Shown: positions 2,624 through 60,127 of the stretch, in pieces
Numbering within the stretch: position 1 is the stretch's first letter
Layout of the letters: every line of letters starts with the position of its first letter
NCBI GenBank assembly: GCA_963969595.1
Contig: OZ018408.1
Span: 45,013,022 to 45,077,021, forward strand
Origin: Neckera pumila
Lineage: Eukaryota; Streptophyta; Bryopsida; Hypnales; Neckeraceae
Direction of reading: 5' to 3'
DNA: 64,000 bases
Translations under genes and position numbers: made by a program
The notes under the pieces: model-generated
What the model was told of the DNA's origin: nothing
Databases searched by the model: none
What the model saw: the letters and a program-made list of their open reading frames with translations, nothing else

Positions 2624-2990
2624 CCTCAAAACACTGGAGAAAAACAAAAGGAGAAAGATAAAATTAGGTATTACACCTAAACTCACCATACTTTGCATCA
2701 ACTGAGACAATTTGACCTGTGATTGACGGACCTAAGCATTTTGCATTAAGATTGCTCATGGCAAGCACTTACTGGACAATTTGACCAACACATATAAAAA
2801 GGAATAATTAATGAATTATATGTAATATTTTCAAAGTATTATCTTGGAATTGATTAAGTCCTAGATCATACATTGCATAAGACAATTTGATCAAATCTGA
2901 AGTTTTGACCAAACTATTTGACCACCTTGTAGAACACTATATAAGACTGGGACTTCATACATTGTGTCTACATACATTAATAAAGGACTG
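2590..2990 (+). promoter_or_regulatory. LTR-like TTGACC cluster with TATA and poly(A) signals
   Basis: CAATTTGACC or TTGACC recurs at about 2605, 2623, 2712, 2780, 2905 and 2921. TATATAAG follows at 2938-2945 and AATAAA at 2979-2984. A U3-like repeat field, a TATA box and a poly(A) signal 40 bp downstream is the usual arrangement in a retrotransposon LTR. I found no primer-binding site or matching second LTR, so the class is uncertain. TTGACC is also the core of the plant W-box. Confidence 0.3.
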
Positions 2991-3261
2991 AGAACAAAAA
3001 TCCAAACCCTTGGAAATAAGAGTATTTGTGAATTACAAAACTAAAACCAAGTATTTTCAAATTTTAAGTATTATTCTATTTGAAAAGTGACATTAGTCAC
3101 ATAAACGATAGACTGATTAAACCTTTCCCTATAAAAACTTCTATACTAGTGTTTTCCTGGGTTTTGTGGAAAAAGCCAAAACCTAAATTACAGGGCGCAC
3201 AAAGTTAGTATACTAACTTAAACATGAAACATTTGTGTCCACACAAGTATAAGTTCAAGAG

Positions 3262-4206
3262 TTAACCCCTAAAGGACTGTTGTCCGTTTGGGGGACAAAT
3301 GGGATTTCGGGTAGGTACCTATGGGCTGAAATTTTCTCCTGATTTTTTGAAAATTTTTGTGAATGTGAAGAATTGAGAGAGGTATGTGGCCGAAAAAAAT
3401 AATTTGAAATTGGACCTTTGAGCAAGAAGTTATGCCATTTCTTGGAATGCATGGGGAGAGGGGGCAGCAAAAAAAATTTGCAAAATTTTGAATTTTTTTT
3501 TTTAATATTTTTTTCTAATAGATTATATTTTTTCTATATGGAAAGCTTTTATTCATTTCATTTGGATTTGTTATGAGGAATTATAGACATTCTTGTTTTT
3601 TGGGCAGTTAGAGCATCTTCTTGAAAAAAATAATTTGTAGGATTCATTTTGGAATGCAATTTTTTTAATTTTTCAAATTTATTTTTTGTATTGGTTTAGT
3701 TTGGTTTTTGTATTGGTTTAGTTTACTTGCTAGAACAATCTCACCATTGGGATTAGTGCATTTTAATTCCATCTGAAATACATTAATATTTTAGATTTCC
3801 TTCTATCTTGTACCTATTTCTACTTAACAATTATTTTAAGAATGATAATGAAGTTTTTTTGAATTTTTTTTCCCCTAGACTCTCAATTCAATTCTCTACT
3901 AGAAAGATTTAAAGCTCAAAACGCTGTAGTGCAAAAATTTTAAGTTAAAAATGTTTGAAGTCAAAAAATTTAGTCCCGCAATGTGCTGAAAAACTTGTTT
4001 TTTCCACTTTAAGCGCAGATATCTTGCAATCTGTACGGTCAAAAGTTCTGAAATTTTTTCCACATATTCTCATACTAGTTAGATATAAGATCCTACGGTT
4101 AGATGTGCAAAAAAAATAATTTTTAAATTTTTTTACTCTTTGCTCTAGAAATGGCAGTTTTGAGAGTTTTTGGGCAGAAAAAAGGCCTTGGTCCTTTAGG
4201 AATTAA
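3262..4206. mobile_element. TTAA-flanked element P1 (piggyBac-like, non-autonomous)
   Basis: Begins TTAA-CCCCTAAAGGACTG and ends GGTCCTTTAGG-AATTAA. The body carries the subfamily-B marker, a GTCC..GGGGGAC palindrome just inside the left end, and a CAAGATATC-type motif (here as ATATCTTGCAATC). It is about 0.94 kb with no transposase ORF. The family's TTAA duplication is shown directly at P6 (21669-22616). Confidence 0.75.
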
Positions 4207-7200
4207 GGTTGCCGGCCTATTTCTAGTCACCCCTTGATTTTGGTGGTATAGGCTGTTTTCTTTCTGACCATAGATTAATCAATTGAGGTACAGTTTGAGG
4301 AACAGTTATGGTACAATACGATTGGCTACGAGGCTCTCAATATTGCAACTAACCCTTGGTCGACTTTGCAAGGTGGTCAGACTTTGCATGTGGTCAAAAA
4401 TAGAAAGGTCTATATCACCATTATAGGTTGAAGAGAATCTTCCACTAAAAGATTCATAGTAATTATGTTTTCTCTAATAAAATTCTGAAAAAATATGCAG
4501 TCCTTCCAAACTCTATTTCTGTACATGAGAAAAATTCCTCACTCAAAAACCTGGACTCCAAATATGCATAATTGCTTAAGTGATTGGAAATGGGTTAGCT
4601 ACCTTAAGTCTTCTTTTCCTTCGGTTCCAGAAAGACCGATCGACAGATCGACTGACAATGAGCAATTCCTTCTTCCCTACTCTCCAATCCACAACGACTA
4701 TGAGAGCCACGTGCCTCCAGATGCTTGGTCTAGCTGCAGTAGCTGCGGTTAAGAGCAAAGAGGCTCTGGATGTCAACGCTCCAGAACAGGAGATAAAAAA
4801 AAGACTCCTGAAGACTCCCCCAATTGTCCCAAAGTATGTTCACTTGGTCAGCTTGAGCTGCAAAGATCCATTTGTCCAGAATTGAGAAACACGGATGAAA
4901 TTGTTAAAAATCAGCACTCTCTACAAAAAAAGGTCTAGTGATCAAATTTCATTCATTTGTTAAGATTTTGTAAACCGTAGGATCTTACTTTTGACAAGTA
5001 CTAGGGTAACATATAAAAAATTTGGGGTGTGAGGACAATAAATGTGTAAAAACAAAGCTTACAAAGGAAAGCAAGAAGTTTCTTTGAAAGATTGTTCAAA
5101 ATTTTGACAATGTGACTTTCTTTGGCTTGTAAGGCCTACAACTCAAATTATCTTTTCAAGGAAGATTTCATGACTTCAATTTAATTTGAGTAGGGCCTCA
5201 AGAAAGGAAGAAGTATGCAAATTTTCAAAGCAAAATGATGTTGCCATCCTTGTGCCCAAGTTGGATTTCAAAACAAACAAACAAACAAAAAACTCAATCA
5301 TTGGATCTTCATAAAAATTAGATTCCTTGGATGTTGTTTGTTTCCCTAATTTCACCAAAAAAAATGAAGAAGGAAAAACAAAACCTAATACATCATTTTA
5401 GATGCCCAAGATCTTCAAAATCTGTTTCAGTTTGCAAGGAGCCTTAAAGATTAAAAATTTGTTTGTTTGAGATACTACATCAAAATTCACAAGACAAAGA
5501 AGGGGGGAGCCAAATTAGGTACCCTGGTTAGAAGGAAGAACATTAGTTTCAATACTAATGTACTGGCAATATTCCAATACTTTGGCATAGTTCAAGACAA
5601 GCAACCTAAATCCAAAATTTGTATTGGCTATCCTAGTTTGTGACCTGAAATTAGAACTTTGTGAAAGATACAAGTCACAATTTAGGATTGTGTAAATATT
5701 GCCAATTTAATGAAATTGATGTTGAAGACTCTATACTACCAACATTCATACAAATGCCATTTAGATTGGCACACAAAGCTACAACACTTGTTACAACAAT
5801 AACTTAAGAAATATGCTTAATTACAATAAGATAATTACACCTAATTATATTGCAATACATTGACACTTGTCTAAATAAAACACTCCAAAGTCTTGAACAA
5901 TGAGTACACACATTGAGTTTGAAAATATTCAATACCTAAATCGATTTACAATTGATGATCTACCAATAAAAATTTGAATCCAAAACCTTGTGTATATAGT
6001 ATCCAAATAAGGTAGAAACACCTAAAAGCAACATTTTTTGCTCTCCCACACCAAAACAAATGGCCTTGAAGGAACATTTCCATGACTCAAAACCGCCACA
6101 ATTTTTCAAAAGCAAGCAATGAGAGGTAAGTAGTTTTGTGAAGCAACCAATGAAAGTTGAGACATTTTGTCATTTCAACAATGTCCACTCAAGGCAAGTC
6201 TAAGGTAAAACCAACCATATCCAATCCCTTTAAGCGATTTCGGGATAGATCATGAGCAATATGAGGCAATGCAAAATTTTCCATGTAGAAAGATAGGAAA
6301 TATAGAGACTACAATTTTTTTTGTAATTTTATTTCTAAAATTGACATTACTATGAACTTTGGGAGCTGAAAGTGCTTAGAACGTATAGCCAATGTCTAAA
6401 CTCTTCTAATCCCGCTCACTACTTCCTACTTTCTTGCTCATTGACTACTTCCAATGCACTTTGGGACATATATCATGATTCTATTTGTCCCACCCTTCAA
6501 AAGGAAGAAAGCACAAATTTCAAACTTTGGTTGGAAATCTATTCCAACCTTAGGTTGGAAATAGCTTCACTCTGCACATTGGCTATGGCTCCCTGGTTGA
6601 GAACATGTCATGCTACCTTTAGTTAGTCTTGTGTATAGGCTACCCTATATTTTCAGCTTTAAAAATTTGTAAAGTATTGGTAGAGTGTCTGAAAAGTACA
6701 AAACCACATATCAGTGAATCTCTTTTAGACCTCATCAAATTTTGTTGGCCATTCATTCTTTGAGATAGTGGGACCCCCCCAAACAGTTGCTTTTTGATGT
6801 TTCTACCTTCATATGGTAGGCCTACATTGTTTTATGTGTTAGAATCCTCCTAACCAGTACGTTATAAATAATCATCTGTCCATAAATTCTAAAATGTGGG
6901 TACCTTCAATATTGCAGTAATATCAATACCCCCAAAACACTTAAAATTTTTTTTCTGAAACACATGGGCAATTCTCATTGACCCCCAAAGTACTTGGAAC
7001 ATTCTCATTGACCCTGCAAACACGAACATGGACAAGCTCTTTATTTATTTATTTATGAAACACATGGACCATTATTTTCTACATGGATCATTTATTTCTT
7101 TGACAAAAATGACTGGATTACAACAGTTCGTACCTGCATCTCCAAAATGAACCACGATCGTTGTCATCTGACTTTCACCTATCGGTAATTATCAGAAGGT

Positions 7201-7250: not shown

Positions 7251-7486
7251 AGCACATTCATATGAATTCAATACCGCACTAGATGCAAATTTCATAGAAC
7301 GCCATATGATTTGACATTCTAGAAACTCTAAATAGTTGTAACTTCAGCAATTACAATTTCTCATAATGTGACCTTTTTCAGCATTTTGAACTTCTGCAAA
7401 TTATATAATTCGCAATAAAAAAAAAAAGGGTTGAGAGGGCTTTGCAAATATGCAACTCTTCTAAAGCTTTAACTTTTGGATGTTAT

Positions 7487-8017
7487 TTAACCCCTACCAT
7501 TTTTTCACCAAAAACGCTCCAAAACTGCCATTTCTAATACAAGTATCAAATTTTAGAAAAAAAACATTTTTGGACACATGTAACTGGAGGATCTTGTAGT
7601 AAACTTGTTTGAGAATGTGTAGAAAAAATTTCAGAATTTTCCACCTTGTAGATTGCAAGATATTAGCATTTGAATTGACAAAAACCCTTTTTTTGGCCCT
7701 GCGAAAAACTAGGCAGCTGCATTTCACAAGGTCACATTTAAATGAAAAAATGTCCAAAATGGTGGTTACTCCTTGGATTAATTCTTCAAAGCAAGTTGGC
7801 TACATGCTTGAGAAATTGCAAATCATTTGGAATTGTACAACATATAGGAAAAAAGTAGGTTGTAGAAAGAAGTAGAGAATGATTCAAAACACAAAATTTT
7901 TAAGAATTTAATTATGGAATTGAAAAATGTCAATCCAACGGTTGTAATGTTGTTCGTAGTGAGCTGCCCAAAATTGCTATATTGCCAAAAAATGCCATTT
8001 GGTCCTTTAGGGGTTAA
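7487..8017. mobile_element. TTAA-flanked element P2 (piggyBac-like)
   Basis: Starts TTAACCCCTACC and ends GGTCCTTTAGGGGTTAA. It is oriented opposite to P6 and internally shorter (about 0.53 kb). It shares the family body motifs ATGTAAC.GGAGGATCTTGTAG and TTGTACAACATATAGG. Its right TTAA (8014-8017) is also the left TTAA of the next element. Confidence 0.75.
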
Positions 8018-8376
8018 TCCCTAAAGTCCCAAGGCCATTTTTCTGTCCGTTTATCCAAAAAATTTAAAAAAATATATTTTGTTTAGAATCTAACCACAGG
8101 ATCTTATACTACACTTTTCTCAGATCATGATCTTTGATTGTAATTTCAATTTTTTATGGATTTTTTTTGTTGCCAGGTCTCCCCCGTTTTGAGGTTATTG
8201 TAGCATAACTTTTGCTCCCGGGCACCGATTGAAATAAAAATTACATTCTAGGAAAGCTAATAAGTTTTTTTATCTTATGGAAAAGTTTCAGAAAGTTTCA
8301 TCAAAAATTAAGCTCATAGAAACCTGCCCGAAATCCATTTTGTCCCCCGTAGGGACAATGGGATTTTAGGGGTTAA
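8014..8376. mobile_element. TTAA-flanked element P3, abutting P2
   Basis: Begins TTAATCCCTAAAGTCCC and ends ATTTTAGGGGTTAA. This is subfamily B, with a GTCCCCCGTAGGGAC palindrome near the right end and a 'gctcccgggcaccgattg' block. Only one TTAA separates it from P2, as expected when an element inserts into the TTAA flanking another. Confidence 0.75.
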
Positions 8377-8498: not shown

Positions 8499-9424
8499 TT
8501 AACCCTAAAGTTTCAAAACAATGTTTTTACAAAAACGCTCTAAAACTAGCATTTGTAGTAGAAGTACCAAATTTAAAAAAAAAAATATTTGGACATATGC
8601 AACCATAGAATCTTGTACTACACTAACTTGAAAACATGTAGAAAAAATTTCAGACATTTCCACAATGTGGATTGAAAGAAATGAGTGTTTGCTCAATCAC
8701 ATATATGCTTTTTTGGGCCTTGCAAAAAAATGGGCAGCTGCATTTCACAAGCTTGCTTTTCTATTAAATAAAGTCCAATATGGTGGTGCTTCTCTGAATT
8801 AATTTTCCTAGGCAAGTTGGCTACATGATTGAGAAATTCACATCATTTGAAATTGTACAACATATAGAAAAAAAATTGTAAGTAGAAAAAAGCAGAGAAT
8901 GATTCAAAATACTACATTGTCAAGAATTTAATTATGGAATTGAAAAATGCCAATCCCAATGGTTGCAATGTTGTAATGAATAATCTGCATCCTATGATTT
9001 TATTTTTTTCCCAAAATGTTGAAAATTGAGTTAGATAAACAACTTTAAAGTTTATTTTAGAGTAGAGAACCCATACTTGCTCGCAAACTAAAACTCCTCA
9101 TAATTTTCATCTCATTGATCAAAATGGAATGATTCAAAGCTTTCCACATTTATATAAATCTAGAAAAATGATTTCAAATTTTTATTTATGAAAAAAGTGA
9201 ATTTTCTTTATCTTCCCGAACTACCCGGCTGAGCAAAAAATAACATATTTGGCTATAACTTTTGGCTCGTACTAACAAATATCAAAAAAATTTGTTCACA
9301 TGAAAAATATTCTTTGTCCACAACTTCTCTTAAAGTTTGGGCCTAAAACATGCAAATCTCTAGTCACACATATTTGCCTATAATTTCTATGTTGCCAAAA
9401 AACACATGCTGGTCCTTTAGGGGT
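8499..9424. mobile_element. TTAA-flanked element P4
   Basis: Left end TTAACCCTAAAG. Right end GGTCCTTTAGGGGT, where the flanking TTAA is lost. Internally collinear, in reverse, with P6 and P8. Its stretch near 9045 (TTTATTTTAGAGTAG) is the unoccupied version of the site that P15 entered at 58312. Confidence 0.7.
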
Positions 9425-9589
9425 GTCATGCATAGTATGCATGTCATATGAAGTTTTAATTATATGAAAGTTGCATCTGGTATGGACCTTCATACACATT
9501 ATTATCATATGAGAGTCAATGACAGTGATAAGGGTTATTTTTTGAAAAGTGGACCTTGGATTGAGCCCCTTCCTTCAACAAAACTAGTG

Positions 9590-11422: not shown

Positions 11423-12265
11423 TTAACCTCTAAAGGCCCAAAGTCCCCTTGGGGGACACTTGGGATTTTGGGCAGGCTTGTGTGACATAAAATTTTGGCT
11501 TGATTTTTTTAGACCTTTTTTTAAGATAGGGAATCACATTAGCTTTCTAAAAGTATAATTTTTTTTCAAAATTGGTGCCCGGGAGTAAAAGTTATGCCAC
11601 CAAAGTCAAAAAAGCAACTTGCCGGGCAAAAGAAACCCTTGTAAAGAATTGTATTTAAAATTTAATTTTTTTTCTCAAAGATCATGTTTTTGTCTATATT
11701 TGAAGCTTTGATTCATTCTATTTGGATTCAAAACGAGGAAGTTATAGACAGTCTTGTTTTTGGGGCAATCTAGCATCTTCTTCAAATGTAAAAACAATCC
11801 CACTGTTGGGATTATGGTGTTTTAATTCCACCTAAGAGCTATTAACAATTTAATGCTTCATTCAATTTTGGACCTACTTCTACTTAACAATTCTTTTATA
11901 TGTGAAATTCAAGTTTTGACATCCTGTAATTTTTTTCCTCGAATCTCAACTCAAATGTTCAATATAAAAAAAAATAACCCAATGGTGTGTAGTGCAAAAA
12001 AATCTACAAATGGCCGTCAAAGTCATCTGAAATTGAAGGCTACAATTCAAAAAACTTTTTATTCCAACTTCAAATGCTAATATCTTCCAATCTGTACAGT
12101 CAAAGTTCATGAAATTTTTACCACATAATCTAAGACAAGTGAAGTTCACAATCCTATGGTTAGATTCTAAAAAAAAAGTTATTTTGGTTTCTTGAGTGAT
12201 TGCAGCAGAAATGGCAGTTTTAGTGGTTTCGGAACCAGAAACTGCCTTGGGCCTTCAGGGGTTAA
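11423..12265. mobile_element. TTAA-flanked element P5
   Basis: Starts TTAACCTCTAAAGGCCC and ends GGGCCTTCAGGGGTTAA. Subfamily B: GTCCCCTTGGGGGAC lies just inside the left end, and a 'tgcccgggag' block and a 'caatctgtacagtcaaag' block follow. Confidence 0.75.
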
Positions 12266-14589: not shown

Positions 14590-15756
14590 GATACCAAAAA
14601 TTCAAAGATTTCTTTTAAAACTTTATATTACTGACATTTGTACAGATATCATTTGTACAAAGAAACCACATTTGTCACAACAACAATAATTTATAAAATA
14701 TGCATAATTTTAGTAAGATAGTTACACCTAATTATATTGTGACACGTTGACACTTGTATAAATACAACACTTTAGAACCTTGAACAATGATTATATACAT
14801 TGAGTTTGAAAATATTCAACACCTAAATATGTTTACAATAGAAGATCTACCAATAAAAATTGGAATCCAAAACATTAGAGAAATATTCAAACCTCTAGAC
14901 CTTCAATGGATTGCTCCACAGAGTCCTTTAGTACCCTGAAATTTATTTTTAAGGGGCTGAAAAAAATTATTTTTCCCCTATTTCCGTACAACAGTTTCTG
15001 CTGTGACAGTGGCGCAAGAACCGAAATTTGCAAATAAAAAATTTATATATATATATATTTTAATCTTAAAAAAAAAAAAAATCTACGAAATCTGACTGCT
15101 CTAGCGAGCAGTTATACACACTGTAATTGCTCACCATGGGTACTTTTTCAGGTTGACAAGCCATGCATTAAATAACATGGCATGTCAACTTGGAACGCCC
15201 TCCCATGGGCTGAAATTTTCTCTAATGACCTATTGTGTATGGTATCTAAATAAGATAGAAACAACTAAAAGAAACATTTTGCTCTTCAATACCTCAAAAA
15301 ATGACCTTTTAAGAACACTTCCATGGTCCAAAAGTGCCACAACTTTTCAAATTAAAGCAAGCAATGAAAGGTAAATAGTTTTGTGAAGCAACCAATGAAA
15401 GTTGAGACATTTTGTGCTTTAAAGGAGAGTCCATTGAAGAAGAGTCTAGTCTACGTAGTCTTGTATATAGGCTACCCTATATTTTCAACTTTTGTAAAAT
15501 GTTAGTAGATTGTCTGGAAAGTATAAAACCACTTAAAGTGCATCTGTCTTGAGTTTGCATCTAGATCTCATCAATTGTATTAGACATTCAATCATTGAGA
15601 TAGTTGGACCCCCAATGTTGTTTTTAGATGTTTTTACCTTAATATGGTACATTATCTTATGCGTTGGAATCCTCTTTGACAAGTATAAAGAATAACTTGT
15701 CCATTCTAAAAAGGTAGATACTTTCAATATCAAACACCTGGAGTGGATATCTTTAA
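14590..15756 (+). repeat. Family C repeat copy C3, upstream of ERF copy 1
   Basis: Collinear with 31755-32530, which lies upstream of ERF copy 2, so it is part of the duplicated segment. It is also a dispersed repeat found elsewhere without ERF genes. Interrupted by G2 at 14873-15227. Confidence 0.65.
14873..15227. mobile_element. CATTAG-ended MITE G2
   Basis: Left end CATTAGAGAAATATTC, right end GAAATTTTCTCTAATG. Internal hairpins include a GCTCTAGCGAGC-type stem and a CATGCATTAAATAACATGG stem. The family C site without insert reads GAATCCAAAACCTT. Here it is GAATCCAAAA, the element, then ACCTA, so any target duplication is at most 1 bp. Confidence 0.75.
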
Positions 15757-16075: not shown

Positions 16076-16412
16076 ATTCCAAACACCGCCATCTCGCAAT
16101 CCAGACAGACCATGTCGTCAGCTTGCTCCAAAGAGGGGAATTTCAAAGGTTTTCGCACGCTGGTCCACTAGCCAGCAGTTTCCCGGACATTCTATCCGGC
16201 CTGTCCTTGGCTTGACTGTGAGCTTCTGGCGTCAGGGGTAGATAACCCGCGCGCCTCTAAATTTCCCCAAGATGTGCACAGAGTTTGCCAGCACGTACGC
16301 ACACCGTTCATGTCAATCGATTGACCATAAAAGTATCATAAACTCTCATTTACGTACGTGAGATCAATCAAACACATGTAGTCGCATATATATAGAGAGA
16401 GAGAGCGCAGAC
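16076..16412 (+). promoter_or_regulatory. Promoter and 5' leader of ERF copy 1
   Basis: Conserved with 32906-33320 of copy 2, interrupted only by small indels. It contains the palindrome TCAATCGATTGA (16313-16324), whose right half overlaps a TTGACC W-box core, then TATATATA at 16387-16394 and a short (GA)n run before the ATG. The palindrome block is the best conserved stretch between the two copies. The start site itself is not determined. Confidence 0.55.
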
Positions 16413-17789
16413 ATGCATGATATGATCAGTAAAGGTAGGAAGTGTAATTCTGAGGTCATGGAGAGGAAGGCAGACTGCAGCGTCGTCTTGGACGTCATCG
16501 TGGAAGGGTACTCTATGCCAGAGCCTGCATGTGTGGACCTGGAGACGTGGGATCCAGCAAGTACGAGGTTCGCGGCACTCATGGCAGACTGCGGGGAGGA
16601 CTCACCGCGAACTCGAAGACAGCAAGCGCTCGAAAGCTTGAACCAGTACTTGTTCCAGGATCAGCACGAGTCTCATGTGAAGGAGCCGTTGTCAAGTGAT
16701 ATTCACGAAGACGAATCCGACATTGCGCAATTCGGGTTCAGTTTGGAGCAGCTCAGCGACGCCGTGACCATGAATGACGTCGATGAGTTCGAAGCTGCCA
16801 GCTTCGTGACGGGACACACGGAGGTTGAGTCGACGAGTTTTGCAGCTGACTGGAGTCACGGGACGCCAGCGAACGCGGAGATTGCGAAGGCGTTCGATGG
16901 GAGGATAGCCAACCTGGAAATCGAGAACGAGTTTGCAACTGAGCTGGAATGCTCGATTACGGAGGACAATTCGCTTTCGTACATGAGCGGTCACTCTGAG
17001 TACTTCGATGACGACTTGCCAGGCGTATTCCAAGAGGAGAAAGTGTTGTCTCCCGAGGACGACGGGTTGCTGCAGCACCCGCGAACACTCCCAGGTGACG
17101 ATCTGGAGGTGGAAGTTTCGACTGCGCAATCCGTGCACTGCTCACATCCTTACCCGCCGTCGCCTCATTACCGCGGCGTGCGGCAACGTCCCTGGGGCAA
17201 ATTCGCGGCGGAGATTCGCGACCCGGGGAAGCAAGGCGCGCGCGTGTGGTTGGGGACGTTCGACACCGCCGAGGAGGCCGCCACGGCTTACGACATCGCG
17301 GCACTTCGCCTCCGAGGCTCCCGGGCCCTTCTCAATTTCCCCTTGCTCGCCGCCAAGGCGTTCACGGATCCGCAGTCGCTCCCTCCAGCACCCAAAACCT
17401 CCGCCACCAGCCGCGGCTCTTCCAACACCAAACTCTCACCACCAGCGCCACCGCCAACATCCCCTGCCACACCATCTCCACCGCAACCTCTCACACCACC
17501 GGCACCTGCAGCACCAGCGCCACAGTCTCGTTCTTCGCGGCTGTTGTCAAAGGTGCGTAGCAGGCAGTTCACGTCGAAAGTGGACACGCATAGCTACATT
17601 GCGAAGCAGATTCTGATGTCAGAGTACAAGAGACCGAAAGAGGATTGGTCCAGGACTCGAGAGTCGGTAGCGTGCAAGATTAGGAGCGACAAACTGCCGC
17701 AGTGGAAACAAGCACGTGTTGTCGGTGCGTTCAACGTGCTGCCTCTGCTGCTGCAAGCTAGTCGCCCGGCTAATCGATGTCAAGGTTAG
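16413..17789 (+). CDS. AP2/ERF-domain transcription factor, copy 1
   Basis: An intronless 458-residue protein predicted to act in the nucleus as a sequence-specific DNA-binding regulator. The AP2/ERF domain lies at about residues 252-311. It begins [19 protein letters not shown], contains the WLG core in [17 protein letters not shown] and ends RALLNFP. Ala and Asp at the subfamily-diagnostic positions (14 and 19 in ERF numbering) mark it as ERF rather than DREB, so GCC-box binding is expected from the family. The N-terminal half is acidic and could be an activation region. Residues 320-375 are a Pro/Ala/Ser-rich linker, followed by a basic C-terminus of unknown role. The ATG at 16413 is 19 bp after a TATA-like run; an in-frame ATG at residue 16 (MERKAD) is an alternative. 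The last nine residues (SRPANRCQG) come from a small deletion that removed the stop used by copies 2 and 3. The Pro-rich linker and duplicated flanks suggest recent amplification. Confidence 0.93.
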
Positions 17790-18805: not shown

Positions 18806-19475
18806 CAGATTTACTACACTAAATAGTGAATTAGGTTGTCCTATAAAAATCTTCAACATTTGACACTATATAAGTATTCATTGTTATCGTACAATATGCA
18901 CTACTTTTGAATTAGGTATTGTTGTAATTGAGACTCATGAACCTCCATGTGTACAAATGGAAGTATCTTTAGAAATATCTGTTGACTTTGATAACTTGTA
19001 AGTAACTTTCTTGGAGGAAGGCAGCCTAATTTTTTTGGCAATTTAATTTCACTATTTAGTGTAGGTTGCCTAACAATTAGGTTGCCTTATTTGGACCTAA
19101 GAAAGTTACTTTACATGCCATCAAATTTAACAAATACAGTAGAACCTCTCTAAAGCGACATTTTTGACAAGATCAACTTAGAGAGGTTTATTTGTTTATG
19201 GAGGGTCATTTTTAGTCATAACCTTTGTCTTGGTGTTAAATTCAAGACCGGTCTGACAACATTAGCTTACAAAGGTTGAACATCAGCTTTTAGAAGAACA
19301 TGTTAGGGAGGTCCTATTGTACTTCTACAGATATTTCCATTTGTACACATGGTTTATAAATCCCAATTACAACAATAGTTGATTCAAGAGTAGTGCACTC
19401 TTGTACAATAACATTAAATAACATCAAATGTCAAGTATAGGGCAATCTAATTTCAATATTTGGTGTAGTATGTCT
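18806..19475. mobile_element. Foldback element in the ERF copy 1 flank
   Basis: The ends TACTACACTAAATAGTGAAT and ATATTTGGTGTAGTA are imperfect inverted repeats that continue inward for more than 200 bp ('tgtacacatgga', 'aaagtagtgca' on both arms). ERF copy 3 has a short uninterrupted sequence at this point (near 62505-62520), so the element entered after or outside that lineage. Copy 2 keeps a rearranged version split by P8. A mariner-like MITE sits in its middle. Confidence 0.6.
19137..19319. mobile_element. Emigrant/pogo-like MITE
   Basis: Ends CAGTAGAACCTCTCTAAAG and GTTAGGGAGGTCCTATTG are inverted repeats flanked by TA (19135-19136, 19320-19321). The terminus closely resembles the Arabidopsis Emigrant terminus CAGTAAAACCTCTATAAA, which belongs to the Tc1/mariner pogo group. 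ERF copy 2 has the uninterrupted site near 37160. Length 183 bp. Confidence 0.7.
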
Positions 19476-21668: not shown

Positions 21669-22616
21669 TTAACCCCTAAAGGACTGAACATGCTTTTTTG
21701 AGAACATAGCTTTTTTGGGCAGCTCACTACAAGCGGAGATTTTATTTTTTTTTCTTTGAAATTTTCACACAACATTTTCCTGAGGAGTAGCTTTAAGGCC
21801 CAATAATTTTCATAACTTTTGATTACAAGATTAAAAAGTTATTGCATGATATGCCGTTTTCATTGCTCGGTGGGCAGCTCGGGCAGCAAAAGAAAATTCA
21901 TTAAAAATCACTTTTTTTAAAAATAAAAATTTGAAATTGGTTCTTTAGATTTATATGTACGCGAGAAGCTTTGAATCATTCCATTTGGATCTATGAGTCA
22001 AAAGTTATGAGGATTCTTAGTTTGAGGGTAGTTATGGAATCTCAACTCTAAAATAAACTTTGAAGTCCTTTATTTCACTCAATTTTCAATTTTTTGTTGA
22101 AAAAAAATAAAAACCTTGGGTGTAGATTGTTTATTACAACATTACAACCGTTGGGATTGGCATTTTTCAATTCCATAAACAAATTCTTAACAATTTAGTG
22201 TTTTGAATCATTCTCTACCTCTTCCTACTTACTATTTTTTTCCTATATGTTGTACAATTCTAAATGATCTGAATTTTTTTCAAGCATGTATCCAACTTGT
22301 CTAGGAAAATGAATCCAAAGAGTAACCACCATTTTGGACATTTTTTCATACAAATGTGACCTTGTGAAGGGCAGCTGCCCGGATTTTCGCAGGGACAAAA
22401 AAAGGATTTTTGTCAATTCAACTGCTATTATCTTGCAATCCACACGGTGGAAAATTCTGAAATTTTTTCCACATCTTCTCAAAAAAGTTTACTACAAGAT
22501 CTAATGGTTACATGTGTCCAAAAATATTTTTTTTTCTGAAATTTGATACTTGTATTAGAAATGGCAGTTTTGGAGCGGTTTTGGTGAAACCATAGTCAAG
22601 AACCTTTAGGGGTTAA
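21669..22616. mobile_element. TTAA-flanked element P6 (type copy)
   Basis: TTAA (21669-21672) precedes CCCCTAAAGGACTG. The right end is AACCTTTAGGGG followed by TTAA (22613-22616). The homologous position in the ERF copy 2 segment (38112-38140) is unoccupied and reads GGCATTGTTAAGTTGTG with a single TTAA. The element is therefore the 940-bp interval between the TTAAs, and TTAA is its target duplication. That duplication and the CCC-start inverted termini match the piggyBac superfamily. No transposase ORF. Confidence 0.85.
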
Positions 22617-23146: not shown

Positions 23147-23162
23147 CAATACCTTAAATGAG

Positions 23163-24098
23163 GCTGTTTGTTTTGTTTTGTTTTGTTTGGGTTTTGTTTG
23201 GGTTTTGTTTGGGTTTGGTTTGGGTTTGGTTTGGGTTTGGTTTGGTTTGGGTTTGGTTTGGGTTTGGGTTTGGTTTGGGTTTGGTTTGGGTTTGGGTTTG
23301 GGTTTGGTTTTGGGTTTGGTTTGGGTTTGGTTTGGGTTTGGGTTTGGTTTGGTTTGGGTTTGGGTTTGGGTTTGGTTTGGTTTGGGTTTGGTTTCGGATT
23401 GGGTTTGGTTTGGGTTTGGATTTGGTTTGGGTTTGGTTTGGGTTTGGTTTGGTTTGGGTTTGGTTTGGGTTTGGTTTGGGTTTGGTTTGGGCTTGGTTTG
23501 GTTTGGTTTGGGTTTGGGTTTGGTTTGGTTTGGGTTTGGGTTTGGTTTGGTTTGGGTTTGGGTTTGGATTGGGTTTGGTTTGGGTTTGGGTTGGGTTGGG
23601 TTTGGGTTTGGTTTCGGGTTTGGTTTGGTTTGGGTTTGGGTTTGGGTTTGGTTTGGTTTGAGTTTGGTTTGGTTTGGGTTTGGTTTGGGTTTGGGTTTGG
23701 TTTGGGTTTGGTTTGGGGTTTGGTTTGGGTTTGGTTTGGGTTTGGGTTGGGTTGGGTTTGGGTTGGGTTGGGTTGGTTTGGGTTGGGTTGGTTTGGTTTG
23801 GGTTGGATTGGGTTGGGTTGGTTTGGGTTGGTTTGGTTTGGTTTGGGTTTGGTTTGGGTTGGGTTGGTTTGGTTTTGGTTTGGTTTGGTTGGTTTGGGTT
23901 GGTTTGGGTTGGTTTGGGTTGGTTTGGGTTGATTTGGGTTGGGTTGGTTTGGGTTGGTTTGGTTGGTTTGGTTGGTTTGGTTGGTTTGGTTGGTTTGGTT
24001 GGTTGGTTGGTTGGTTGGTTGGTTTTGTTTGTTTGTTTGTTTGTTTGTTTGTTTGTTTGTTTGTTTGTTTGTTTGTTTGTTTTGTTTTTGTTTTGTTT
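23163..24098 (+). repeat. Large (TTTGG/TTTGGG)n simple array
   Basis: About 930 bp made almost only of T and G on the + strand. It is graded: (GTTTT) and GGGTTTTG units at the left, alternating TTTGGG and TTTGG through the centre, GGGTTGG then (GGTT)n, and (GTTT)n at the right. It lies exactly where the repeat X copy at 9911-9966 has a 56-bp (AAAC)n tract, so it is an expanded microsatellite within repeat X. Long open frames on both strands (up to 379 codons) are artefacts of the repeat. Confidence 0.9.
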
Positions 24099-24345
24099 GT
24101 AGCGTAGACAACTTCCTGACCGTGTGTCCCCCAGCCGCGTGCTTGGTACCGTCGGAAAGCTCTCGCCGAGGAGGGGTGCACCGGCTTGGTTTCGTGGCAT
24201 TTGGAGCGGTGGTGCAAAAGTTATTGAATTTCAAAGTATTTATTGATTAAAAATTTAGAAAATTACTTTTACTTTGATTTTGGTGGCGTTCTTGGTACTA
24301 GGAGTGGAACCAGGAGTGGAACCGGGAGTAGATGAAAATTGGTCC
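24099..24345 (+). repeat. Repeat X core next to the simple array
   Basis: GC-rich core 24110-24220 (GCTTGGTACCGTCGGAAAGC and GGGGTGCACCGGCTTGG), an AT tail, and three units of the 12-bp GGAGTGGAACCR minisatellite (24297-24333). Nearly identical to the inverted copy at 9590-9910. Confidence 0.75.
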
Positions 24346-26370: not shown

Positions 26371-26600
26371 CACTATAAGATAACAAGAGAATGGGGTGTT
26401 TTAAATGATTTCTTAAGTATAGTCCTAGACATAAGGTTGTAAGCAATGACCTTTAAGGCAATTTTCAGCAAAATTTGACTATAAATACATATATTTTTAG
26501 TCAAATTTTGCTAAAAATTGCCTTAAAGGTCATTACTTAAAACCTTATGTCTAGGACTATACTTAAAAACTCACTTAATACACCCCATTCTCTTGTAGTA
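26371..26600. mobile_element. CACTA-type hairpin MITE, copy 1
   Basis: An almost perfect palindrome. The ends are CACTA(taagataa)CAAGAGAATGGGG and CCCCATTCTCTTGTAGTA, flanked by AGG (26368-26370, 26601-26603). C1 has the site without insert, CAAGGAAGATTTC, at about 5157. Each arm is about 105 bp around AGTCAAATTTTG. The CACTACAAGA end and 3-bp duplication fit the CACTA superfamily. Confidence 0.8.
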
Positions 26601-26999
26601 AGGAAGATTTCATAACTTCAAATTTAATTTAATTAGGGCCTCCAAAGTTTGGAAGAGGTATGCAAATTTTTTAAGCAAATGATGTTGCCCTCCTTGTGCC
26701 TAAGTTGGAACCCAAAACAAGACTAAAATATATTCTTTTTTTTTCAATCCTTGGATCTTCATAAAATTAGACTCCCAAAAGTTTGTTTGTTTCTCTAATT
26801 TTACCAAAAAAAGAAAGAAGAAAAAACAAAATATGATACCTCATTTTAAATACCCAAAAATTCTCAAAATCTGTTTTGGCTTACAAGGTCTAGAGCTTTA
26901 GGGGTTAAGTATATGTGTGTTTGAGGTCCTATATCAAAATTTACAAGACAAAGAAAGGGAAAGGTAGAATAGATATTCCAATTGGAAAGAAGAATATAT

Positions 27000-27493
27000 A
27001 TTAGAGGGGATTTGGAGGCCTTGGAAGACCGTTTCAGGCCCGTTCCCAAATTTGCCCAAATTTGCCCAAATTTAGTGAACGACGGTACGGTCGTGTCAAA
27101 AAATTTTCTTTTCAGAAAAAAAACAAAACATTTTACCAAAATATCATTTTAACATTACAAGAGAATGGGGTGTTTTAAATGAGTTTTTAAGTATAGTCCT
27201 AGACATAAGGTTTTAAATAATGACCTTTAAGGCAATTTTCAGCAAAATTTGACTAGAAATATATGTGTTTTTAGTCAAATTTTGTTGAAAATTGCCTTAA
27301 AGGTCATTACTTAAAACCTTATGTCTAGGACTATACTTAAAAACTCACTTAATACACCCCATTCTCTTGTAGTATAAGCAAAAAAAACAAAAAAACTGAC
27401 GTGGCAATTGCTGTACCATGTCAATTGCTTTCACGCAATCTGGGAATGTAAGGGAACTCGCAGTCTCTCAACACCCCCAAATCCCCTCTAATG
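27000..27493. mobile_element. CATTAG-ended MITE G3, with a CACTA hairpin inside
   Basis: Ends ATTAGAGGGGATTTGGAGG and CAAATCCCCTCTAATG. Comparison with other family C copies leaves no room for a duplication over 1 bp. The internal 'atatcatttt-aagc' site is split by the hairpin MITE at 27153. Confidence 0.65.
27153..27374. mobile_element. CACTA-type hairpin MITE, copy 2
   Basis: Ends CATTACAAGAGAATGGGG and CCCCATTCTCTTGTAGTA, flanked by TAA (27150-27152, 27375-27377). The related element G4, on the other strand near 31100-31118, has the unoccupied site (in this orientation ATCATTTTAAGCAAAA) with a single TAA. Arms of about 105 bp would pair almost fully in a transcript. Confidence 0.85.
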
Positions 27494-28126
27494 AATTTCA
27501 TTAAATTGACAATATTTGGACAATACTTTGGTACAATTCAAGACAGGCGGCCTCAGCCCAAATTTGTACCTATCCTTGTTTGTGACTTGGGAAATTAGAC
27601 CTTTGTGAAGATAAATGTCACAAATTTTAGATTTGTGAATATCACCAATTTAACAAAATTGATGTTAAAGACTCTATACTATCAACATTCATACAAATAC
27701 CATTTAGATTGACATACAAAGCAACAACACTTGTCACATCAATAATTTAAGTATACTTGTTACGACAACAATTCAAGAATATTTTTAATCACAAAAAGAT
27801 AATTACACCTAATTACACTGCAATATATTGACACTTATCTAATTACAGCACTCCAAAATCTTGAATAATAAGTACACACATTGAGTTTGAAAATATTCAA
27901 CACTTAAATGTGTTTACAATAGATGATCTACCAATAGAAGTTTGAATCCAAAACCTATTTTGTATGGTATCCAAATAAGATAGAAACACCTAAAAGCAAC
28001 ATTTTCTGCTCTCTACCACTTAAAAAAATGGCCGTGCAGGAACACTTCCATGGCTCAAAAGTGCCACAACTTTTCAAAAGCAAGCAATGAGAGATCTTGT
28101 GTATAGGTTATCATGTGTTTTCAACT

Positions 28127-29097
28127 TTAACCCCTCACCGCCAAAGGGGACCAAAAGTGTCTTCATATAGTTTTAAGTCCAATTCAAAGTGCTCTAACTT
28201 TTGCATCCAATGTCCAAATTCAATCAAACTTATTAGAAAAAATGAGCTCTCTCTTCTAGTTTGTGTAATAAAAAATTTGATCAATATAAGATGTACTGAT
28301 TTATTGGAAGCCAGAAAAAGTTCACAGGTTCAATTTGAGTTTACCAAATTGCATTTGATGACTAGAACTTTGGAGGCTTGTATCTCCTTCATCCAATGTT
28401 CATTTTCAATCAAATTTGTTGTGTTATATTTTCCTTGAAGTTTCATTATTGTGGTAAAAATTTTATGTCAATCTAATTTGTCTTGAATGTTTGGAAGCAA
28501 TTTGAAGTTCTCGAACCCCAACATTTTGGATTTTGATGAACTTTGGTGGCTTGTTTCTTCTTCATACACTGTTTGTTTCAAGTAAATTTTTCTAAAAAGG
28601 TTGTGCATACTAGTCGAGTTTGTGTGGTTAAAATTTCATATCAATCCAAGAAGTGATTAGTGATTAAGAAGCATTTTAGTAGAAAGAAGTTCAACTTTAA
28701 ATGTGATATTTGCAAGGTTTCTTGGTATTTTTTGACATTTCAAAGCCATTTTGCAAACACAATGAGTCAATGATATTTTCTTTCTCCAATGTATTTGTAT
28801 GCTAGTTTTGAATCACTTTATTGTTTAAAATTTTTTCATTTGAGTAGGTTTAGAAATTGAATTTTACTTCCAAATGCGTTGTTAGGAAAATTTTAGTATC
28901 CATTTTCAACACTAAAACATTATAATCTTGCAATCTATATGGCCAAATGACTCCAAATTGATCATGTCCTCTACAACACATACACTACAAGCTTGTATGG
29001 TTGAGATCTCTATAACTTAGCGACATTTTGATCCAAAACACTTCAAAAGCAATGATGTTTTTGAACTTATAAAAGGCCTTGAGCTTTGAGGGGTTAA
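28127..29097. mobile_element. TTAA-flanked element P7, divergent
   Basis: Begins TTAACCCCTCACCGCC and ends GAGCTTTGAGGGGTTAA. The interior differs from the other subfamilies (repeated 'tccaatgttc' and 'tttcaatcaaa' phrases) and the GG(T/A)CC adjoining the terminus is altered. Inserted in family C sequence on the left. Confidence 0.6.
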
Positions 29098-29520
29098 GGT
29101 GCAACAATTTTCATAACTTTTGACTACATGATTAAAAATTATTGTATAATATGTATTTTCTATTGCTTGACAAGCAGCCTGGATAGCAAAGAAAAGATCA
29201 CTTTTAAAAGTAATAAAAATTTGAACTTGGTATCCTAGATTTATATATACTACAAAAAGCTTTGAATCATTCCATTTTTATTAGTGAGATGAAAGTTATG
29301 AGGAGTTTCATTTTGTGGGCAATTATAGAATTTCTACTCTAAAATAAATTTTGAAGTCCTTTGTTTAACTCAATTTTCCAAATTTTTGAAAAAAAATATT
29401 ATAGTATGTGGATTGTTCATTAATTACAACATTATGATCTTTGGAATAGAATTTTCTTAATTCCATAACTAAATTCTAAACAATTTTGTATTTTAAATCT
29501 GACTCTATTTACTATTTTTT
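29098..29520. mobile_element. Fragment of a P-family element
   Basis: Collinear with P6 from its TTAAGGCCCAATAATTTTC position onward, but lacks the left third and the right end. P7 appears to have entered at that internal TTAA, with later loss of the left part. Confidence 0.5.
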
Positions 29521-33390: not shown

Positions 33391-33652
33391 CACTGGGAAC
33401 TTCTGCCACTTTATGCCGGACCTAAAGGGGGGCCTAATGTGCATCTCTGGTTCGGGCTGAGGTTTGGAAGACCGCAGGAACCTGAGTTCCGCGCACTTTT
33501 AGCGTCAATTGAGGCCTAATGCGTAAAAAAATGGGCCAAAAGGGGGAGCAAAAGTTTCGCACCCCCCACCTCGGATTTGTAAAAAATGGGCCAAAAGGGG
33601 GGCCTAACTCTTCACGAGTTAGCCCAGCATAAAGTCTTCAAAGTTCCCAGTG
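33391..33652. mobile_element. CACTA-group MITE inserted in the ERF copy 2 coding region
   Basis: CACTGGGAAC at the left and GTTCCCAGTG at the right form a perfect 10-bp terminal inverted repeat, imperfect to about 26 bp. They are flanked by TTG at 33388-33390 and 33653-33655. ERF copy 1 has the uninterrupted coding sequence with one TTG at this point. Length 262 bp, so the insertion of 265 bp also shifts the reading frame. Confidence 0.88.
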
Positions 33653-33679
33653 TTGGACGTCATCGTGGAAGGGTACTCT

Positions 33680-34936
33680 ATGCCAGAGCCTGCATGTGTG
33701 GACCTGGAGACGTGGGATCCAGCAAGTACGAGGTTCGCGGCACTCATGGCAGACTGCGGGGAGGACTCACCGCGAACTCGAAGACAGCAAGCGCTCGAAA
33801 GCTTGAACCAGTACTTGTTCCAGGATCAGCACGAGTCTCATGTGAAGGAGCCGTTGTCAAGTAATATTCACGAAGACGAATCCGACATTGCGCAATTCGG
33901 GTTCAGTTTGGAGCAGCTCAGCGACGCCGTGACCATGAATGACGTCGATGAGTTCGAAGCTGCCAGCTTCGTGACGGGAAACGTGAAGGTTGAGACGAGT
34001 TTTGCAACTGACTGGAGTCACGGGACGCCAGCGAACGCGGAGATTGCGAAGGCGTTCGATGGGAGGATAGCCAACCTGAAAATCGAGAACGAGTTTGCAA
34101 TTGAGCTGGAATGCTCGATTACGGAGGACAATTCGCTTTCGTACATGAGCGGTCACTCCCAGTACTTCGACGACGACTTGCCAGGCGTATTCCAAGAGGA
34201 GAACGTGTTCTCTCCCGAGGACGACGGGTTGCTGCAGTACCCGCGAGTACTCCCGGGTGAGGATCTGGAGGTGGAAGTTTCGACTGCGCAATCCGTGCAC
34301 TGCTCATATCCTTACCCGCCGTCGCCTCATTACCGCGGCGTGCGGCAACGTCCCTGGGGCAAATTCGCGGCGGAGATTCGCGACCCGGGGAAGCAAGGCG
34401 CGCGCGTGTGGTTGGGGACGTTCGACACCGCCGAGGAGGCCGCCACGGCTTACGACATCGCGGCACTTCGCCTCCGAGGCTCCCGGGCCCTTCTCAATTT
34501 CCCCTTGCGCGCCGCCAAGGCGTTCACTGATCCGCAGTCGCTCCCTCCAGCACCCAAAACCTCCGCCACCAGCCGCGGCTCTTCCAACTATAAACTCTCA
34601 CCACCAGCGCCACCGCCAACACCCCCTGCCACACCATCTCCACCGCAACCTCTCAAACCACCGGTACCTGCAGCACCAGCGCCACAGTCTCGTTCTTCGC
34701 GGCTGTTGTCAAAGGTGCGTAGCAGGCAGTTCACGTCGAAAGTGGACACGCATAGCTACATTGCGAAGCAGATTCTGATGTCAGAGTACAAGAGACCGGA
34801 AGAGGATTGGTCCAGGACTCGAGAGTCGGTAGCGTGCAAGATTGGGAGCGACAGACTGCCGCAGTGGAAACAAGCGCGCTTTGTCGGTGAGTTCTACGTG
34901 CTGCCGCCACTGCTCCAAACCTATTACTCGGGCTAA
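33680..34936 (+). CDS. AP2/ERF-domain transcription factor, copy 2 (5'-disrupted)
   Basis: The first in-frame ATG after the MITE gives a 418-residue protein starting [13 protein letters not shown], equivalent to residue 35 of copy 1. An in-frame TAG at 33620 blocks any earlier start, and the frame entered from the original ATGs closes inside the MITE. The AP2/ERF domain ([19 protein letters not shown] to RALLNFP) is identical to copy 1, while about 27 other residues differ and one serine is missing near residue 140 of copy 1, a pattern suggesting selection on the DNA-binding domain. The C-terminus [12 protein letters not shown] matches copy 3 and is probably ancestral. Whether it is expressed is unknown: upstream ATGs in the MITE and lost N-terminal sequence could make it a weak or dead gene. 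Function as for copy 1: a predicted nuclear GCC-box binder. Confidence 0.8.
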
Positions 34937-36178: not shown

Positions 36179-37108
36179 TTAACCCCTAAAGGACCAACAT
36201 GCGTTTTTTGGCTGTATAGAAATTTTGGGCAGGTATGTGTGACTAGAGATTTCTGTATTTCAGGCTGAAACTTTAATAGAAGGTGGGTGTGAGGAGTATC
36301 TTTCATATGCACTAATTTTCGTGACATTTGGAAATGTGAGTCAAAAGTTAGAGCCTAATATGCTACTTTTTTTGTAACTGGGCAGTCTATGCAAATCAAA
36401 AAAAGTCGCATTTTTCAAAAACAAAAATTTGAAATCAGTTTTCTAGAGTTATATACACGTAAAAAGCTTTGAATCATCCCATTTTGATCAATGAGTCAAA
36501 AGTTATGAAGATTTTTAGTTTTCAAGCAGTTATGGATTTTCTATACTAAAATAAACTTTGAAGTCCTTTATATTACTCAATTTTCAATATTTTTGAAAAC
36601 AATAAAATCCTAGGATTTACATTCTTTATTACAACATTGCAACCATTGGGATTAGCATTTTTCAATTCCATAATTAAATTCTTGACAATTTTGTATTTTG
36701 AATCATTCTTTATTACTATCTACTTACAATTCTTTTCCTATATGTTGTACAATTCCAAATGAAGTGCAATTTTTTAGGCATGTAGCCAACTTATCTAGGA
36801 AAAAGACTCCAAAGAAGCACCATCATTTTGGACATTTTTTCATCAAAAAGTGAGCTTGTGAAGTGTTGCTGCCCTATTTTTTGCAGGGCCAAAAAATGAT
36901 TTCAGTAAATCTGAATGCTTATATCATACAATCCACGTGGTGGAAATTTTTGAAATTTTTACCGTATGTTCTCAAGTCAGCATACTACAAGACCCTATGG
37001 TTACATGTGTCAAAAAATGTTTTTTTCCAAAAATTGGATGCTTGTACTAAAAATGGCAATTTTTGAGTGTTTTTGGTGAAAACATAGTCATGGAATTTTA
37101 GGGGTTAA
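36179..37108. mobile_element. TTAA-flanked element P8
   Basis: Starts TTAACCCCTAAAGGACC and ends GGAATTTTAGGGGTTAA. The corresponding site in copy 1 (near 19062-19080, TAGGTTGCCTAACAATTAGG) is unoccupied and has a single AA-containing target. Internally collinear with P6. Confidence 0.75.
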
Positions 37109-38007: not shown

Positions 38008-38145
38008 GTCATGGGCCTTCTTATTTCCATTATCATGTTTCAGTCCACTGTGCAGACTAACCATAAGAGATGGATCTTATAACAATTATAAAAGATATGA
38101 AAGCGAATGCTGGCATTGTTAAGTTGTGTGATATCAGAGGTGGTA

Positions 38146-38469: not shown

Positions 38470-38790
38470 AAACGTTCTGACCCGCAAACTAATACTCCTC
38501 TTGACTTTCATCTTATTAATTATCAAAATGGAATGATTTAAATCTTTCCACATATAAAAATCTAGGAAACCAATTTCAAATTTGTATTTTTTTAAAAATG
38601 ATAATTTGAGTTGCTTGTGGAGCAATGAAATTTTTAAAAATATATGAAAATTGTTGCACCTTAAAGCTACTCCATGATCACATGTTGTGTGAAAAAATTT
38701 GGTAGAAGAAAATAAAAAATTCCCTTTTCAGTGAGCTACACAAAATTTCTATGTTGCCAAAAAAAATTGTTTGGTCCTTGAAGGGTCAAA
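38470..38790. mobile_element. Right-end fragment of a P-family element
   Basis: Collinear with the right arm of P9, ending TTGGTCCTTGAAGGGTCAA, a worn terminus. The left part is missing. Confidence 0.5.
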
Positions 38791-40561: not shown

Positions 40562-40908
40562 TTAACTCCTAAAGGACCAAGCTACATTTTTTAGCAACAT
40601 AATGATTTTGGGTAGCTCATTATAAATGGAGTGTTTATTTTCTTTCTTTGAAAATTTTACACAACATGAGCTCAAGGGGTAGCTTTAAGGCTTAACAATT
40701 TTTGTAACTATTGACTATTTGGTTAAGAAGTTATTGAATGATATGTGATTATCTTTGAACTTTGGGCAGCCCGGGCAGCTCAAAAAATTTCTTTAAAAAT
40801 GACTTTTTAAAAGAATAAAAATTTGAAATTGGTTCTTCAGATTTATATGTACATAGGAAACTTTGAATCATTCAATTTCAATCTATGAGTAAAAACTTAT
40901 GAGGAGTT

Positions 40909-42592
40909 TTAACCCCTAAAGTTCCATGACTATGTTTTCACCAAAAACGTTCAAAAACTCCCATTTTTAATACAAGTATCCAATTTCTGAAAAAATAACT
41001 TTTTTTGACACATGTAATTGTAGGATCTTGTAGTATGGTGACTTGAAAACATATTATAAAAATTTCAAGAATTTCCACCTCGTGGATTGCAAGATATAAG
41101 CATGCAAATTCACTCAAACCATTTTTTTTGGCCCTTCAAAAAACAGCGCAGCAACACTTCACAAGCTCCCTTTTTGAAGAAAAAATGTCTAAAATGATGG
41201 TGCTTCTTTGGATTCATTTTCCTAGACAAGTTGGCTATATGCTTAAGAATTTTCACTTCATTTGGAACTGTACAACATACAAGAAAAAAATAGTAAGCAT
41301 ATAGTAGTAGAGAATGATTCAAAATACTAAATTGTTAAGAACTTAATTATGGATGATTGCATGAAAGACCTGTACTATTTTCCGTCACATATTGTATACT
41401 GATTATTTTTTTGGCTATAACTTTTGTGTTTTGACTTCAAATGACTCAAGATTCATAGGCAAGGTACTTATGGCTATTATATACTTTGTTTAATTTTTGG
41501 AAAATTTTAAAAAATGTTTTACTATTTAATAATAGCCCCCAATATTATGTCACACTTAGCAATTTTGGGGGTTTTAGTACTATTTAGTACCCAAAAAAAT
41601 TGAATTTGGAGCTGAAATTTGGTGGAGATGGTCTTCTAGTAGACTTGTAGCTAATGTCCAAAGCAATTCTAAAAATACTTAAATTTATGTGGTGTAGAAG
41701 TCCACAAAGTGAGCTTCATTTAGCTTGCATTTTGAAACATATAAAACATATTTTTGGTGGTTTCTTTGGTAAATGACCATCTACATAGAGTTCGTAGAAA
41801 TGGCCAATTTTTATTTTACTTATTAAATTTTTTTTCCTATTTTTAACTAATTTAAACATCAAAGTATCTATTTTCACGAGTTTTGGCATTTTTCTAGTTC
41901 TCCTACTTAGAGAACTTTCCTAGACTTTTCCTTCGGTGGTTACCTTCATCTTAAAGGTATATACATTAGCTATATTTTTAAAAAAATTTAAAAATTATTT
42001 TTCTAATTTTAAAGTACTCCAAAAGAAATCATGAGTACTATTGCAAAATGCAACAAATAGTACAGGTCTTTTGTGCAATCACCGAGGCAATCACCCTTAT
42101 AAAATTGAAAATGCCAATCCCAATGGTTCCAATGTTGTAATTAACAATCTACATCCTAGGATTTTTTGTTTTTTTCAAAAAACATTGAAATTCATTAAGG
42201 TAAAGGACTTTAAATTTTATTTTAGACTAGAGAATCCATAACTACCTACAAACTAAAAATCTTCTTAACTTTTGACTAATTGATCAAAATGGAATGATTC
42301 AAATTTGTTTACCTATATATAACTCTAGAAAAATTATTTCAAGTTTTTGTTTTTGAAAAATGTGAGTCTTTTATCTGCCCGGAGTGCCCACTTACGAAAA
42401 AAGGTAACATATTTAGGCCATAACTTTTGACTCATATTTCCAAATGTTATGAAATTTGGTGCATATGAAAGACATTCCTCGCCCCCACCTTCTATTGAAA
42501 TTTCAGCCAAAAACATGGAAATCTCTAGTTGTATGTACCTATCCAAAAATTCTATACGGCCAAAAAATGCATGTTGGTCCTTTAGGGGTTAA
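40909..42592. mobile_element. TTAA-flanked element P10, nested in P9
   Basis: Ends TTAACCCCTAAAGTTCC and GGTCCTTTAGGGGTTAA. Other P elements read AGGATTCTTAGTTTGAGGG where P9 is split at AGGAGTTTTAA/TTAATTTGTGGG, so the target was a single TTAA. It contains a third-level insert (41353-42096). Confidence 0.8.
41353..42096. mobile_element. MULE-like MITE, third-level insert
   Basis: Ends GATTGCATGAAAGACCTGTA and TACAGGTCTTTTGTGCAATC. Sister copy at 54556-55276 and a worn fragment at 57175-57590. The flanks TTATGGA and TTATAAA suggest a decayed 7-9 bp duplication, consistent with Mutator-like elements but not proof. No transposase. Confidence 0.55.
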
Positions 42593-49460: not shown

Positions 49461-49480
49461 AAATCAAAGGATCAAAAGAT

Positions 49481-59984: not shown

Positions 59985-60127
59985 AATTAAGTCTAAGGTA
60001 GAGCCACCCATATTTGACTAATGACCTATACCAATCTATAGGTGAAATTATTTTTGACTAAGGTTGCATCAAATTTTTTGAATCTTAAAATTTTTGTTTT
60101 TTCCTTTTCAAGGTTGGAACTAATAAG

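Follow-up and report, generated by a model that had tools for sequence, protein, structure and literature searches.

Short TTAA-flanked elements and piggyBac transposase genes in the genome of the moss Neckera pumila

The element at 21669-22616 starts TTAACCCCTAAAGG, finishes CCTTTAGGGGTTAA and has many relatives around it, which raises the question of what kind of transposase moved this family in a moss. It lies in the window analysed here, a stretch of 64,000 nucleotides (C1:45013022-45077021) within a 339.5-Mb assembly of 18 contigs; further loci fetched from this genome are cited as L009 and so on, with positions inside the locus. We conclude, with high confidence, that the short elements belong to piggyBac as non-autonomous members, which the piggyBac transposase of full-length elements would move at TTAA. 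The observations behind this reading are the TTAA flanks, the empty sites, the transposase-bearing elements with matching ends, the conserved catalytic residues and full-length copies that duplicated recently. The superfamily itself is known, and what is new is a member with an unusual host and scale.

Short elements in the window

TTAACCCCTAAAGG, with up to three mismatches, occurred 35 times in the window against 8.25 expected and a maximum of 15 over 100 shuffles. Its core, CCCCTAAAGG with at most one mismatch, was found 23 times, 17 of them directly after TTAA, and about 300 permuted cores, used as its control, averaged 1.6 occurrences with a maximum of 9. Elements and fragments with TTAA and CCCCTAAAGG at their boundaries number approximately 17, a total that includes interrupted, truncated and decayed copies, and 12,254 of the 64,000 bp show homology to the family. 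The sequence-only reading had counted at least 17 elements with uniform ends; the number stands if decayed copies are included, but the uniformity does not, as strict pairing (TTAA, at most two mismatches, 200-1000 bp) left six complete elements and 21669-22616 is the only one with the exact 14-mer at both termini. The remaining elements are mismatched at one or both ends, or have one end decayed or absent. Two motif matches, 26895-26908 and 43928-43941, were rejected as elements and left uncounted because they sit within another repeat, whose homology runs across both.

The window has two main sequence groups, A (consensus 932 bp) and B (consensus 920 bp), whose consensuses have a common tip and are 73% identical over the final 200 bp and 71% over a 69-base stretch. 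Group A comprises A1, the element of 948 bp introduced above (21669-22616, plus strand; P6 of the sequence-only reading), which is intact, with exact ends and TTAA on both sides, and whose nearest relative in the sampled loci is L010:5470-6411 (94.6%); A2 (36179-37108, plus, 930 bp); A4 (40909-42592, minus), into which an unrelated repeat has inserted (about 41354-42096); A6 (46742-47459, minus), partial with the right end kept; A7 (57751-59264, minus), with an ATAA flank at 57751 and a decayed end at 59264; A8 (8499-9427, minus, about 929 bp), with both tips decayed; A9 (7483-8017, minus), which carries an internal deletion and a decayed outer end that makes 7483 approximate; and the fragments at 29094-29520 (plus) and 38480-38789 (minus, with a decayed left end). 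Group B comprises B1 (3262-4206, plus, 945 bp), B2 (8014-8376, minus, 363 bp), B3 (11423-12265, plus, 843 bp), B4 (44905-45500, minus), a partial copy with homology to about 45479 and an exact right end, B5 (49479-50265, minus), without a left end and with a non-TTAA flank at 49479, B6 (58312-58897, plus, 586 bp), and B7 (60124-61054, minus, about 931 bp), with decayed tips. Several copies are nested: B6 splits A7, B3 is placed in an A-type fragment, and A4 splits mid-element a copy with two left-type ends at 40562-42990 (about 749 bp by arithmetic). In addition, A9 and B2 use one common TTAA (8014-8017), and at L030:355-358 and L034:889-892 one element has inserted into the very TTAA that terminates another; a preference for insertion at element ends is possible.

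The subterminal regions are also conserved. Among 26 oriented elements (24 short and two full-length, with four palindromic or ungrouped ones excluded), GGGYAG lies 38-58 bases inside the left TTAA in 21, of which 20 have it at 47-48, and CTGCCAT lies 35-75 bases inside the right TTAA in 15, of which 12 have it at 49. Element length also clusters: 17 of the 28 complete short elements from the window and the fetched loci measure 913-948 bp under a pairing limit of 200-1000 bp, and eight of 13 do so when the loci picked for the motif are left aside. A separate palindromic class of about 747 bp has two left-type ends (L009:3411-4157, L017:4076-4822, L022:5899-6641, and the interrupted copy at 40562-42990, which shares the design of the first two); its three uninterrupted copies (743-747 bp) each align with their reverse complement from end to end at 83-91%. 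The narrow length range near 930 bp, together with scale and host, is what surprises in this family.

A coding role of the short elements was rejected: substitutions in their open frames of 80-100 aa follow no consistent pattern over the three codon positions, and when ten window frames, of which six lie within elements or overlap them, were compared with Pfam, three frames had weak matches, four in total, and none reached the cut-off. An internal period of about 155 bp, suspected from the spacing of motifs, was dropped: a lag scan of 18 elements gave 23 windows (0 when shuffled), but every lag stemmed from a single element.

The surrounding DNA holds other features. Three AP2/ERF gene copies, 85-92% alike in DNA, lie at 16362-17789 (plus), 33623-34936 (plus) and about 62726-64000 (minus, cut by the window end). 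The AP2 domain was assigned through homologs of the first copy; among the best 120 of its 4,424 matches, the named ones that span most of its length come from two mosses, Ceratodon (41% over 63%) and Physcomitrium (34% over 83%). The three copies mark the host as a land plant, and the matches of the first make a moss likely. About 1 kb at 23160-24110 is nearly G/T-only, with strong strand skew, TTTGGG/TTTGG units at one end and TTGG/TTTG at the other. The unrelated repeat within A4 (41354-42096) has GTACAAGTGTTTCTTGCA-type ends and recurs at 54555-55276; a 225-bp pair, 26376-26600 and 27150-27374, is 94% identical and also self-matches in inverted orientation; and another dispersed repeat occurs at 5810-6109, 14697-14996, 27778-28077 and 51455-51754, with copies also near 31804 and 43348.

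Target site and empty sites

The sequence-only reading had taken the paralog of the A1 site to be unoccupied and to hold one TTAA, and this is what the alignment displays: the joined flanks of A1 align ungapped to 38008-38145 with 97.1% identity, and the empty site holds a single TTAA (38119-38122). In another paralog, which is less similar (61781-61658, 76%), the sequence at the site is TTATTATAA, a 5-base difference. Empty sites were sought in two sets, one of 13 elements and one of 32 joined elements with a spanning match for nine of the 32. Single-TTAA empty sites were obtained for four elements, namely A1, L012:4372-5299 (86.9%), L026:7982-8622 (85.9%, with one gap 10 bases away) and the full-length element L029:380-6013 (84.2%). 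In the match of A2 to 19057-19125 (77% over 70 columns), a gap of one base falls within TTAA; A4 and B6 show no junction indel but paralogs that read TTAG, TCAG, TTTG and the like; the paralogous TTAA of B3 is off by one base (CTTTAAGG); and L014:4501 (10 gaps), L016:4733 (two gaps) and L016:5736 (71%, TTGA) were uninformative.

Flanks point to the same tetranucleotide. In the window and ten loci taken at round coordinates (L019-L028), TTAA precedes 36 of 47 core ends (at most one mismatch), the 11 others being decay or chance. Across all 327.5 kb fetched, which include L009-L018, loci chosen for the motif, the figure is 85 of 101. The sequence-only reading had called for a tabulation of flanks on the genome scale, where 6,804 of 7,820 CCCCTAAAGGACCAA ends (87%) proved to be preceded by TTAA, compared with 0 for reversed controls.

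Transposase-bearing elements and rival enzymes

A search of the 339.5-Mb genome with PF13843 (DDE_Tnp_1_7) yielded 116 scored matches from 873 first-look candidates, all 116 above the Pfam cut-off (best E 4.6e-80, 276 bits versus a cut-off of 22.4) and 35 of them stop-free; the same profile found nothing in 14 control genomes. Nine of the 116 loci were opened, every one drawn from the 35 stop-free matches, and among them three complete transposase-bearing elements have TTAACCCCTAAAG / CCCCTAAAG ends: L029:380-6013 (5,634 bp), L033:88-7387 (7,300 bp) and L031:44 to L038:257 (7,314 bp). The sequence-only reading had suggested looking for a DDE_Tnp_1_7 gene with matching ends and had placed the enzyme for the non-autonomous copies elsewhere in the genome; the 116 matches and these three elements, with the gene between TTAACCCCTAAAG ends, bear it out on both points. 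The L029 protein matches the solved piggyBac transposase 6x67 (phmmer, 5.3e-36), whose residues 268, 346 and 447, counted along the alignment, pair with D in L029, and this DDD triad (D268, D346, D447) is kept in all nine opened loci, which are all stop-free picks. The open frames extend up to 999 aa, and the domain begins at residue 405-518. The L029 and L031 frames have no clear start codon where they begin, which makes an exon further upstream likely for them. The piggyBac superfamily has a C-terminal cysteine-rich domain; on visual inspection several of the nine frames end in Cys-rich tails, and the Pfam scan of three (L029, L030 and L031) matched PF13843 alone and no domain of that kind.

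A second lineage is represented by complete 5,371-bp elements with CCCCTTGRGG tips, L030:355-5725 and L034:889-6259, the latter with a stop upstream of the domain in its frame; the protein search for this lineage returned 20 matches. L032, L035, L036 and L037 each have one candidate end, with a divergent tip in L035 and L037, and the CCCCTAAAGG end of L032 and L036 may be internal because their mutual homology extends past it. Plant relatives were not named among the best 120 of 151 matches in the protein searches, or among another 20 in which two insects were named; such searches reach relatives that share short exact words.

Several features connect these enzymes with the short copies. Terminal inverted repeats of the piggyBac superfamily start 5'-CCY, as the sequence-only reading also stated, and here CCCC opens the consensus ends of A and of B as well as the two termini of L029 and of L033. 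The left 53 bp of L029 are 96% identical to the left end of B6, and its right end matches that of B6 at 75% over 212 aligned columns; the L029 right-end region also matches A1 (71%), stopping short of the tip. The A elements are tied to transposase-bearing copies only by the 10-bp tip, by a motif close to position 48 and by right-end sequence. As the right end shared by A and B lies outside the L029 transposase frame, it is read as a putative transposase-binding region rather than as part of a gene. In addition, L024, a round-coordinate locus, holds a 99.6% copy of L031 that lacks 2108-5158, the segment with the transposase domain, from which it follows that deleted copies arise from long ones.

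Other enzymes could leave part of this pattern. A Tc1/mariner element of the Stowaway type, with a TA duplication and an ACCCC tip, deserves consideration because TTAA is palindromic, so that TA and TTAA cannot be separated by empty sites alone. Stowaway MITEs duplicate TA and leave the outer bases free; here T stands outermost in NTAA at 36 of 38 ends from the window and the round-coordinate loci (A 2, C 0, G 0), against 32% T among the window bases, and in all 327.5 kb it is T in 85 and A in 2, which makes this reading extraordinarily unlikely. PIF/Harbinger (Tourist) MITEs make a 3-bp direct duplication of TWA and were rejected, since TTAA on both sides, taken as 3-mers, gives TTA and TAA, which are not direct copies. 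Sola3 also duplicates TTAA, and so does Kolobok according to a passage in PMC9587614, so another TTAA-duplicating superfamily might be thought to move the elements. The same passage gives Kolobok ends as 5'-RR...YY-3', whereas those found here are CC...GG (5'-CC), and the full copies bounded by such ends carry a PF13843 transposase gene; in L029 and L031, Pfam families besides this one gave no match at E<=0.01. The Sola3 alternative that the sequence-only reading had kept in view is therefore not needed, and we regard either superfamily as a very improbable source.

Within piggyBac, several enzymes may divide the work. L029- and L033-type enzymes may move B, with A moved by a distinct piggyBac lineage that went undetected or was lost: a transposase-bearing copy with A-type tips is absent from the nine opened loci, and the transposase lineages are only 34-46% identical to each other. 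Against this, A, B and L029 share their tip, a motif around position 48 and sequence at the right end, and the A-tipped copy was sought in only nine of 116 scored loci. We consider such a division a real possibility, and infer from the shared ends that an L029-type enzyme would move the A elements. Under the piggyBac reading, full-length elements elsewhere in the genome would make the transposase, which would recognize the shared terminal repeat (CCCCTAAAGG) and the subterminal sequences of the short elements, cut an element out at TTAA and insert it at another TTAA, leaving TTAA on both sides. By analogy with animal piggyBac, excision would restore TTAA cleanly. The palindromic copies of about 747 bp and those with internal deletions may be derivatives that retain two usable ends.

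Abundance, activity and comparison with known systems

The family is abundant in this genome. Exact TTAACCCCTAAAGG occurs 18,843 times genome-wide, whereas the reversed pattern occurs twice. In the ten 10-kb loci L019-L028, of which C1 supplied three, C2 two and C3-C7 one each, 13.9% of the DNA is homologous to the short elements, with 0 for reversed sequence, and 17.2% to the short and the three full-length elements together (SE about 3.3 points, by hand from ten values). These 100 kb contain 35 TTAA-flanked ends with at most two mismatches (reversed, 0), which extrapolates to about 119,000 ends or 60,000 elements in the genome; with 7 exact motifs per 100 kb, the sample predicts about 24,000 of them genome-wide, close to the 18,843 counted. 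The identity of L031 and L033 is 99.58% across 6,458 bp, and that of L030 and L034 98.9% across 5,379 bp; pairs so similar point to recent movement of full-length copies. We tentatively suggest that piggyBac may be dominant and still active in a living plant lineage, with copies in the tens of thousands that make up about one-seventh to one-sixth of the genome, with several transposase lineages that have long N-termini and a length of about 930 bp that the transposition complex or chromatin may favour.

Plant repeat annotation usually seeks five other superfamilies, and such elements may therefore be overlooked in other bryophytes and in ferns. piggyBac, taken from a moth, is a standard genome-engineering tool; the many copies, stop-free domains and near-identical full-length pairs in this moss could offer a native plant system for the study of spread, silencing and footprint-free transposition. 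The sequence-only reading regarded descriptions of such elements from land plants as very few or absent. This was partly right: among the literature matches listed, none described one in a moss, subscription journals being mostly outside the scope; for land plants at large it was too strong, because passages in reviews place piggyBac-like elements in plants (PMC8086355, PMC2874221) and a repeat table for the fern Ceratopteris has 1,230 PiggyBac entries (122,417 bases, 0.00% of the assembly; PMC6890710). That fern resembles the present case in having piggyBac-labelled repeats in a land plant, and the passage with the table gives no element structure (PMC6890710). Kolobok, as described in part of PMC9587614, has the TTAA duplication in common with the moss family and differs in its ends.

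The piggyBac-derived MITEs of animals are, like the moss elements, short non-autonomous copies that share their ends with a piggyBac element, and compared with them the moss family is distinguished by its preferred length (17 of 28 at 913-948 bp), its palindromic class of about 747 bp and its coverage of 13.9% of the sampled DNA. The closest comparison is with the Trichoplusia ni piggyBac (6x67), which has in common with it the TTAA duplication, the CCC tips, the aligned D268, D346 and D447 and the asymmetric ends. The frames here reach 999 aa against 594 aa in T. ni, and the complete elements 5.4-7.3 kb against the 2.4 kb stated in a passage of PMC2874221. The moss system differs further from that of the moth in its land-plant host and in its short derivatives, estimated to number in the tens of thousands.
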